In this document: positions 991-53,978 of the stretch, one piece after another
Position numbering within the stretch: the first letter of the stretch is position 1
How the letters are laid out: each line of letters opens with the position of its first letter
NCBI GenBank assembly: GCA_002839185.1
Contig: PGXO01000001.1
Coordinates: 186,001 to 250,000, forward strand
Length of the DNA: 64,000 nucleotides
Source of the DNA: Synergistetes bacterium HGW-Synergistetes-1
GTDB lineage: Bacteria > Synergistota > Synergistia > Synergistales > Synergistaceae
Reading direction: 5' to 3'
Notes under the pieces: model-generated
Told to the model about the DNA's origin: nothing
Databases searched by the model: none
The model's input: only the letters and a program-made list of their open reading frames with translations
Translations under genes and position numbers: made by a program

Positions 991-1023
991 CAAAAAAGGG
1001 ACCGGAAGAAATCCTCCGGTCCC
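991..1023 (-). terminator. Attenuator terminator in aminotransferase leader
   Basis: On the minus strand a 9-bp perfect stem (bases 1023-1015 with 1006-998, GGGACCGGA/TCCGGTCCC) with an 8-nt loop is followed at once by six T (997-992). It lies inside the leader, 40 nt before the aminotransferase start, so it must be conditional. Its 5' arm (1023-1016) can instead pair with an upstream segment; see the antiterminator entry. Confidence 0.88.
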
Positions 1024-1093
1024 TGAAACGCCTTGATGTTCTAGAAAATTTTAGTGATTTTCTCTATTCATCGGGTACACGTTTCGGGACCGG
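1016..1093 (-). promoter_or_regulatory. Antiterminator arms of the attenuator
   Basis: Minus-strand segment 1093-1080 (CCGGTCCCGAAACG), inside codons 32-37 of the leader peptide, is complementary to 1030-1016 (CGTTTCAGGGACCGG) over 14 pairs with one bulged A. Segment 1030-1016 includes the 5' arm of the terminator, so the two hairpins exclude each other. A third segment, CGTTTC at 1129-1124 (codons 20-22), can pair with GAAACG at 1085-1080 and so sequester the antiterminator arm. This is a classical 1:2, 2:3, 3:4 arrangement. The pairings are read directly from the sequence; the folding and its control are inferred. Confidence 0.8.
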
Positions 1094-1188
1094 CAAAGAC
1101 AACCAGAGCCGCCGCATGAGAAAGAAACGCCGGAAGAGAGAGATGATGACGAAATGCCTGAATAAGCAAAACATGCTGATCTTCTCAT
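1051..1188 (-). CDS. Serine-rich leader peptide (45 aa)
   Basis: Small ORF of 45 codons starting ATG at 1188 and ending TAA at 1053-1051. GGAG ends 8 nt before the start. The peptide has 12 serines, clustered as SSSS at codons 13-16, then 18, 19, 22, 24 and 28, with many Gly and Cys, the two amino acids made from serine. It overlaps the arms of an attenuator and follows a strong promoter, as expected for a ribosome-stalling sensor of charged tRNA-Ser. If ribosomes stall at the Ser codons, codons 32-37 stay free to form the antiterminator and the aminotransferase gene is read. If they pass, the terminator forms. Coding is supported by the RBS, composition and position; function is inference. 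Confidence 0.8.
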   Translation of the reverse strand: MRRSACFAYSGISSSSLSSGVSFSCGGSGCLCRSRNVYPMNRENH

Positions 1189-1227
1189 TTTAAGCGCTCC
1201 TTTCCTGTGTCCCCGTTGAATGGTTAA

Positions 1228-1258
1228 CATATATACTCTCCTTTTGGTTAAATGTCAA
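1228..1258 (-). promoter_or_regulatory. Promoter of leader peptide and aminotransferase
   Basis: Minus strand: TTGACA at 1258-1253, a spacer of exactly 17 nt, and TATATA at 1235-1230. This is close to the sigma-70 consensus. Transcription would start near 1223, giving a leader of about 230 nt before the terminator T-run. Confidence 0.85.
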
Positions 1259-2984: not shown

Positions 2985-4355
2985 ATGCAGGAAAAACAAA
3001 TTGAAATTATCAGGCAGAAACTTGCCGAAACACATAAAAAAGGAGCCGTGCACGCTGACGTTTTTATTCAGGCCGGAACTGCACACTCGGCACACTATGA
3101 AGACGGCAGGATAGAAGAACTCTCATCCTCCAACACTGACGGTTCAGGAGCAAGGATCATCGCAGGGAACAAAACATTTTATTCCCATTCTCCAGGCACC
3201 TCGGTATCAGGCATATCACAAATCATTTCTGAAGCTGAGACCTCAGCATTCGGTACATCATCCCTGAATGCTGAAAAGGGCAGGGACCCCATCCTGATGA
3301 TGGAGGAACATATCTCGCCTCCGGAGATAGGTTATATGAAAGAGCTCGATCTTAAGATCAGGAAAAGTTCCAAATATGTAAGACAGGCAGCTTTCAGATA
3401 CAGCATCTCAAAGAGGAATGTCCTGATAATTAGGTCAGACGGCATTTGCGCCGAGGACAGCAGGACATATTGCAGTTTTTCCGCACAGATAATAGCGGAA
3501 AAAGACGGAACACTTCAGACAGCCTCGGAGAGACGCTGCATGGCGGTTCCGCACCCTGATTTCTGGTCGGGTTCGGACCCGCAGAAGATCGCCTTCGCCG
3601 CGCTTGACAGAGCCCTTCTTATGCTTGAGGCAAAACCCTGCCCGGCAGGAAAGATGAAAGTCCTGCTGGCCGGAGAGGCCGGCGGCACAGTTATCCACGA
3701 AGCATGCGGACATGGGCTGGAAGCTGATATAGTAGAAAAGGACCATTCAATATACAGAGACAAGATTGGAGAAAAAGTGGCACATGATTCGGTGACTATG
3801 ATAGATGACCCTATGATCCCGTGCCTCTACGGCTCATACAGATTTGATGACGAGGGAACTCCTGCCAGGAGAAACGTACTGATCGAAAATGGAGTATTAA
3901 AGGCTTATCTGACCGACATACTTTCTGCCAGTACGTCGAACCTTCCTCTTACAGGAAACGGCAGGAGGCAGTCATACAGGAACATCCCTGTGCCAAGGAT
4001 GAGCAACACTTTTCTCGCTCCGGGTGATTCCAACTTTGAGTCGATGCTGGCTCAGACCGACAGCGGACTTCTGGTCAAAAAGATGGGGGGAGGGGAAGTC
4101 AACCCTACTACCGGGGATTTTGTCTTTTATGTCTCAGAAGCGTATATAATTAAAAAGGGTAAGGTATCACACCCTGTAAAGGGTGCAATACTCACGGGCA
4201 ACGGACCCGATGTGCTGCAAAATATTATTTCACTGGGAAAAGACCTTTACATGGATCCCGGTGTCTGCGGAAAATCTGGGCAGGGAGTACCTGTTACTGA
4301 CGGACAGCCATCTATGCTGATCGAAGGGATGACTGTAGGAGGTAGTGAGGCCTAA
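2985..4355 (+). CDS. tldD: TldD/PmbA-family metallopeptidase
   Basis: TldD-like zinc peptidase of 456 residues. The signature HEACGHGLEAD at 238-248 supplies the HExxxH metal-binding motif of TldD; TldE/PmbA partners lack it. The C-terminal half contains the usual Gly-rich stretch (GGGEVNPTTGDF). In E. coli TldD/TldE cleaves unfolded peptides and processes microcin B17 and CcdA. No tldE/pmbA partner is in this window, so the protein may act alone or have a partner elsewhere. The start ATG at 2985 follows ACAGGAGAG. Confidence 0.9.
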   Translation: MQEKQIEIIRQKLAETHKKGAVHADVFIQAGTAHSAHYEDGRIEELSSSNTDGSGARIIAGNKTFYSHSPGTSVSGISQIISEAETSAFGTSSLNAEKGRDPILMMEEHISPPEIGYMKELDLKIRKSSKYVRQAAFRYSISKRNVLIIRSDGICAEDSRTYCSFSAQIIAEKDGTLQTASERRCMAVPHPDFWSGSDPQKIAFAALDRALLMLEAKPCPAGKMKVLLAGEAGGTVIHEACGHGLEADIVEKDHSIYRDKIGEKVAHDSVTMIDDPMIPCLYGSYRFDDEGTPARRNVLIENGVLKAYLTDILSASTSNLPLTGNGRRQSYRNIPVPRMSNTFLAPGDSNFESMLAQTDSGLLVKKMGGGEVNPTTGDFVFYVSEAYIIKKGKVSHPVKGAILTGNGPDVLQNIISLGKDLYMDPGVCGKSGQGVPVTDGQPSMLIEGMTVGGSEA

Positions 4356-53624: not shown

Positions 53625-53629
53625 TTTAA

Positions 53630-53978
53630 ACGGGAGCACTCAATAAGCCGGGTTTTGTAAAGGACTAGGTCCTCTCCAGCCATTTATCTAATTCCGCCCT
53701 TGCAGACGGACTTAAGCGGTCGTACCCGGGAGTCAGCGGGCAGCTTCATACTCCCCTATTCGACCTTGCTCCGGATGGGGTTTGCCTGGCCCGAAGGTCA
53801 CCCTTTCGGCCGGTGGGCTCTTACCCCACCTTTTCACCCTTACCCGCTTTCGCAGGCGGTATATTTCTGTGGCACTTTCCCTGAGTTCGCACCCGCAGGA
53901 TTTTATCCTGCATCCCGCCCTGCGGAGCCCGGACTTTCCTCCCGCGCATAGCGCCGGCGGCTGGATCTTGTACTCCCA
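53630..53978 (-). ncRNA. rnpB: RNase P RNA (class A)
   Basis: Catalytic RNA of RNase P, about 348 nt, maturing tRNA 5' ends. Diagnostic conserved blocks on the minus strand are GAGGAAAGTCCGGGC (53941-53927), the J11/12-P12 region, GGGTGCGAACTCAGGG, and ACAAAACCCGGCTTA (53658-53644) near the 3' end. The two ends pair as P1: GGGAGTAC (53977-53970) with GTGCTCCC (53639-53632). A TATACT box at 53989-53984 puts the start near 53977, matching P1. It stands between the ATPase operon and the dcw operon with its own terminator. Confidence 0.95.

Follow-up and report, generated by a model that had tools for sequence, protein, structure and literature searches.

Layout of the leader locus

The DNA analysed here, hereafter the window, is a 64,000-nucleotide stretch of the genome of Synergistetes bacterium HGW-Synergistetes-1, a member of the phylum Synergistota (contig PGXO01000001.1, positions 186,001 to 250,000), and our subject is the leader of a class V aminotransferase gene near one end of it, a putative serine-responsive attenuator. 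Coordinates are those of the window, and all features of the leader and its operon lie on the minus strand. The aminotransferase gene (951-1; 381 amino acids, cut by the window edge) is the first gene of the operon. Ahead of it, a -35 box TTGACA (1258-1253) and a -10 box TATATA (1235-1230) are separated by a 17-nt spacer, and a Shine-Dalgarno-like sequence, GGAAAGGAG (1205-1197), ends 8 nt 5' of the ATG of a short open reading frame (ORF). This leader ORF (1188-1051) has 45 codons, 12 of them for Ser, and translates as MRRSACFAYSGISSSSLSSGVSFSCGGSGCLCRSRNVYPMNRENH. Ser codons are dense from codon 13 to codon 24 (1152-1117), the presumed stall zone, with codons 13-16 forming an unbroken run of four; Gly and Cys codons are also numerous.

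Two alternative helices can form 3' of the Ser codons. The intrinsic terminator (1024-997) has 12 stem pairs and a 4-nt loop and leads into a T run (997-992). The antiterminator 5' arm, CCGGTCCCGAAACG (1093-1080), overlaps the end of the leader ORF and pairs with a 3' arm, CGTTTC-A-GGGACCGG (1030-1016), that overlaps the terminator 5' arm. The antiterminator thus comprises 14 pairs and one bulged A, and the terminator 5' arm is common to both helices.

A first-pass annotation, made from the letters of the window, had described the promoter at 1258-1230, the 45-codon ORF with its ribosome-binding site and Ser codons, and the 14-pair antiterminator sharing the terminator arm, all of which we find in the sequence. 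Its terminator also stands as a hairpin followed by six T residues, with a stem that our count makes slightly longer than the 9 bp it gave. The promoter is not listed by a simple promoter scan, because TATATA lacks the final T which that scan requires. In nearly all relatives inspected TTGACA or a close variant lies upstream, and a purine-rich Shine-Dalgarno-like stretch was scored at their leader starts.

The leader precedes an aminotransferase-serA operon

As the first-pass annotation had anticipated, the aminotransferase gene is directly followed on its strand by serA, encoding phosphoglycerate dehydrogenase (contig positions 184172-185779, just outside the window); its product scores 559 bits against TIGR01327, for which the cut-off is 454. 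The aminotransferase matches PF00266, as expected of class V. An identification as SerC was tried and rejected, because TIGR01364 and TIGR01366 give only 26-30 bits with the 317-residue part inside the window, against cut-offs above 400. By NCBIfam cut-offs, the enzyme is therefore a class V aminotransferase of a subfamily other than SerC.

Orthologues of the aminotransferase (E < 1e-60) occur in 70 of 188 Synergistota genomes. We collected and oriented 71 orthologue loci, 69 of which provided upstream regions for analysis; loci (L) and families (f) carry our own numbers below. In 68 of the 71, serA lies 3' of the aminotransferase gene, and in the other three the stretch examined has no serA match. 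From this constant pairing we infer a role for the aminotransferase in serine synthesis; in this organism an enzyme other than SerC may be the source of phosphoserine or serine.

A serine-rich frame recurs across Synergistota

Within the window, the Ser content of the leader is unusual but not unique. A density of 9 Ser per 15 codons is reached by 3 of 1214 short ORFs, and against 200 shuffles of the upstream region of the locus itself p is 0.005, the lowest value that this number allows. It is the recurrence across species, rather than the single ORF, that places the feature beyond chance. The Ser-rich short ORFs that the first-pass annotation expected in relatives are indeed there: over the 69 upstream regions, the best 15-codon stretch averages 6.6 Ser, whereas the opposite strand gives 2.75 and dinucleotide shuffles give 3.2, and 34 of the 69 regions reach the shuffle floor of p = 0.005. 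In 59 distinct leaders, Ser accounts for 23.9% of residues, as opposed to 7.3% in the downstream gene and ~7.5% when the leader DNA is read in its other two frames. Cys is likewise enriched (5.3% versus 1.6% in the downstream gene). Runs of up to eight consecutive Ser codons are found.

The codons used for Ser are themselves biased. In the dense windows 89.4% of Ser codons are TCN, compared with 72.1% in the operon genes of the same loci, and the TCN share of 53 leaders lies above that of their own genes, with 6 below (p = 7e-10). When Bacillus subtilis is starved of serine, ribosomes become denser on the four UCN codons and not on AGC or AGU, and Cys codons are affected too (PMC3862929). The UCN-rich leaders would thus contain the codons expected of a sensor of serine starvation.

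One alternative is that the leader is a switch that binds a ligand or protein, such as a riboswitch, a T-box or a protein-dependent attenuator, and that the Ser frame is a by-product of pyrimidine-rich RNA. The Ser run is indeed TC-rich, the downstream part of the peptide is constrained by the RNA arms, and Clostridia control the same gene pair by a T-box (see below). Yet the Ser enrichment is confined to one frame, and third positions are variable: all four bases are seen there, TCA and TCG together make up 26% of leader Ser codons, and the differences between paired Ser codons of close relatives fall at the third position in 86 of 86 cases. Between families, moreover, the RNA around the Ser run diverges while Ser persists. 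The window leader and 20 Synergistota relatives have no Rfam match at gathering cut-offs, including to the T-box (RF00230) and the serC motif (RF00517), and matches of the window leader at E values up to 10 are low-scoring and mostly to eukaryotic families. A binding switch is accordingly very unlikely.

It could also be argued that the product of the ORF is a small peptide with a function of its own, such as a modified precursor rich in Ser, Cys and Gly, with the terminator merely marking its end. Its composition resembles that of azole-type precursors, and a gene on the opposite strand near the leader (2985-4355) is one that we take to be tldD-like. However, no YcaO enzyme was found in the genome of the window, and the constant neighbour of the ORF is the serine operon. 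The peptides also vary, as MGSSSSSSSGWSGRAG..., MRYKTFSASISCSSLSSGLSSCGWSSPPCRSQSE and MAKWSALTFTGCGSCSSDSSSSWRGE... illustrate, and conservation between families is limited mostly to Ser and to the parts that lie over the RNA arms. Because a peptide precursor would leave the antiterminator pairing and its spacing, described next, unexplained as well, we regard it as extremely improbable.

Two mutually exclusive helices covary

Aligning all leaders at once with MAFFT gave no usable result, because the arms and spacers vary by family, and in a larger alignment (A2) two subgroups were offset from each other by one base. For the antiterminator we therefore adopted explicit registers in 14 loci of two subgroups. 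Pairing was counted in an alignment (A3) of arms cut out of their leaders and joined by AAAA in place of the natural linker.

Nine inner pairs of the antiterminator are unbroken in all 14 loci, and two of them have changes on both sides; position 7 is either C-G or U-A, and position 9 either G-C or A-U. Over 11 distinct sequences, 93.5% of antiterminator cells are paired, a level that none of 500 shuffles attains and that falls sharply when the partner is slid along. The terminator is 100% paired and has two doubly changed pairs. In one column all three strands change together, with C in the antiterminator arm, G in the terminator 5' arm and C in the terminator 3' arm becoming U, A and U, respectively. 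Compensating changes, which the first-pass annotation had proposed looking for in both hairpins, are therefore present in each.

A wider comparison points the same way. In 49 loci the terminator arm of the same locus is a better pairing partner for the RNA 3' of the Ser codons than are the arms of other lineages (p = 4e-9), and this preference is seen in f1 (p = 2e-6) as well as in the other families (p = 4e-4). As related sequences are not independent, these pairing p-values are indicative only.

Spacing between the Ser codons and the RNA arms

The position of the Ser codons relative to the arms was assessed by computing, for each position of the ribosome front edge, the capture of the terminator 5' arm by upstream RNA before the 3' arm exists. 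This calculation replaced equilibrium folding of the full leader, because the latter favours the terminator at nearly every ribosome position. Capture is high for ribosomes up to the last codon of the dense Ser stretch and declines 12-18 nt beyond it. Over 52 loci the drop is 0.25, compared with 0.04 for shuffled linkers. It exceeds the null in 32 of 32 f1 loci (p = 5e-10), and in the other families p = 0.03. The spacing between codons and arm is thus the layout of ribosome-mediated attenuation.

Distribution within the phylum

In Synergistota genomes without an orthologue of the aminotransferase, the leader often lies directly 5' of serA, as three additional lineages and a single f1 genome show. 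A Ser-rich ORF with a terminator precedes serA in L163-L166 (f9), L174 and, more weakly, L173 (f7), L175-L177 (f3) and L171 (f1). Shuffle p-values of the serA leaders range from 0.005 to 0.045, with L172 (f7) at 0.15. No serA leader was found in the f1 genomes behind L167-L170 or in the outgroup L178. Viral contigs yielded no relative. In the f7 and f9 serA leaders (L163-L166, L172-L174) the Ser codons are followed by clusters of Cys-Cys or Trp-Cys, as in SRSWSRNQDWKECCFW, which suggests that amino acids derived from serine are sensed too.

RNA elements ahead of the same operon in other phyla

A scan of GTDB returned 80 loci, 76 of them outside Synergistota (two too short to test). In none of these 76 upstream regions do a convincing Ser-rich ORF and a terminator occur together. 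Of 20 tested loci outside Synergistota, most of them from Clostridia, 12 have a T-box (RF00230) before the gene. Visual inspection of stem I assigns the specifier UCC (Ser) to 10 of the 12 and GGC to 2, and serA follows in all 12 as well as in one locus with a glycine riboswitch (13/13). The signal used for the aminotransferase-serA operon therefore changes between lineages. With a Ser T-box in Clostridia and a leader peptide in Synergistota, unrelated RNA devices apparently read tRNA-Ser at the same operon.

The loci with an apparent GGC (Gly) specifier are L119 (2057-2355) and L133 (2129-2353), both before the same aminotransferase-serA pair. In L136 the pair is preceded by tandem glycine riboswitches.

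These distributions bear on a further alternative, in which termination depends on translation with no specific serine signal, as in growth-rate or general translation control, and Ser codons are simply ones that are easily slowed. The serine pathway is, however, the target in every lineage that bears the leader; serS, cysK and glyA of the genome of the window have no Ser-rich leader upstream; and the Clostridia place Ser-specific T-boxes at this very operon. General translation control is, in our view, highly improbable.

Proposed mechanism

From the comparative evidence we conclude that the leader is very likely a ribosome-mediated transcription attenuator that senses the charging of tRNA-Ser, and possibly of tRNA-Cys, and controls the aminotransferase-serA operon. 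Sequence comparison reveals the Ser-rich ORF, the exclusive covarying helices, their spacing, the UCN bias and the link to serA; we infer from these that the leader ORF is translated, that ribosomes stall on it and that expression depends on serine. When Ser-tRNA is plentiful, the ribosome would cross the Ser codons and cover the arm at 1093-1080, and the terminator (1024-997) would form. When Ser-tRNA is scarce, the ribosome would stall at the UCN run and the arm at 1093-1080 would stay free, to pair with 1030-1016 before the terminator 3' arm is synthesised. With the antiterminator formed, RNA polymerase would continue into the serine genes. The reading of the locus as a serine attenuator, offered by the first-pass annotation, thus gains support from the comparison with relatives.

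Several observations weigh against this reading. At equilibrium, and wherever the ribosome stands, the terminator beats the antiterminator in nearly every locus, so the switch must be kinetic. A conserved protector helix was looked for but not found: the antiterminator arm pairs with RNA 5' of it no better (0.67) than in shuffles (0.63; p = 0.14), and the third segment that the first-pass annotation had proposed to sequester this arm, CGTTTC at 1129-1124, is present in the window but is not kept in L007, L010 and L011. The stop codon of the window leader (1053-1051) lies 26 nt past the core antiterminator arm, and a ribosome resting there would therefore leave the core arm partly free; in the relatives L007-L009 and L011 the stop codon is right behind the arm. 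Outside family f1 the signal for the antiterminator is less strong, as both the capture and the own-arm comparisons indicate. Finally, eight orthologue upstream regions lack a Ser ORF. The arrangement is absent in L015, L023, L036, L047 and the outgroup f11 (L070, L072, L073), and L012, from an AT-rich genome, keeps the terminator and an antiterminator-like arm without a Ser ORF. L012 is possibly a decaying attenuator. The pattern that the first-pass annotation named as contrary to its reading, a terminator kept after the Ser frame is lost, is confined to this one locus and is not the rule.

Other features of the window

Just upstream of the leader promoter, positions 1284-1620 are rich in repeats with GGGGAATTTGC units and include inverted 42-nt arms (1310-1351 and 1562-1603) that are 93% complementary. 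A 137-base piece of this stretch has 24 matches in the genome and therefore belongs to a dispersed repeat family. The window also contains a bacterial RNase P RNA of class A (53628-53977, minus strand, 279.6 bits).

Relation to known systems and significance

The attenuators described for amino acid operons respond to only a few amino acids and have been studied mostly in Proteobacteria. A 2013 account (PMC3766115) lists the specificities His, Leu, Thr and Trp, plus Ile/Val and Phe. Searches of the open literature yielded no serine leader-peptide attenuator, and Rfam contains none that we found, in keeping with the first-pass annotation, to which no established serine leader peptide of this type was known. 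The main text of a study of intergenic regions in Thermovirga lienii, another member of the Synergistetes (PMC6429828), has no serine leader.

Like the trp, his, leu, thr, ilv and phe attenuators, the Synergistota leader has a short ORF rich in codons for the product of the pathway, a terminator, and an exclusive antiterminator 3' of the regulatory codons, but it differs in its serine specificity, its host phylum, its long Ser runs and the lack of a detectable conserved protector. The candidate uORFC-8-2 before cysS in Rhodobacterales (PMC8632094) likewise places a leader ORF with regulatory codons before a terminator, and the Synergistota leaders are also Cys-enriched; that alphaproteobacterial element, however, contains two Cys codons in tandem and has a tRNA synthetase as its target, whereas the Synergistota leader is mainly Ser with a biosynthetic target. 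The clostridial T-box (RF00230) shares the operon, the tRNA-Ser charging signal and the terminator output, but it binds tRNA directly, has no leader peptide and has no match in Synergistota loci. The serC motif (RF00517) of alphaproteobacteria precedes a serC-serA operon (PMC1273637); it consists instead of a pair of short stems that block access to the ribosome-binding site, with no leader peptide and no match here. The sinR sensor of B. subtilis (PMC3862929) similarly uses slow UCN decoding as a serine signal, although there the translation of the repressor gene itself is affected and no attenuator RNA is involved.

The feature is real and probably represents a new specificity of a known mechanism. 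It is also likely, if less firmly so, that a serine attenuator tuned to UCN (and Cys) codons is ancestral to most of the order containing the genome of the window, is the counterpart of the clostridial Ser T-boxes, and follows the pathway by standing before the aminotransferase gene or serA, whichever comes first. It would add a serine switch, spread over several families, to a phylum for which we found no description of leader-peptide attenuation. Together, Clostridia and Synergistota would offer a clear example of one operon at which two RNA devices with no relation to each other apparently respond to the same tRNA. Evolution appears to favour UCN over AGY codons in the sensor, and the difference in synonymous codons between the leaders and their downstream genes may serve as a natural test of selective tRNA charging.
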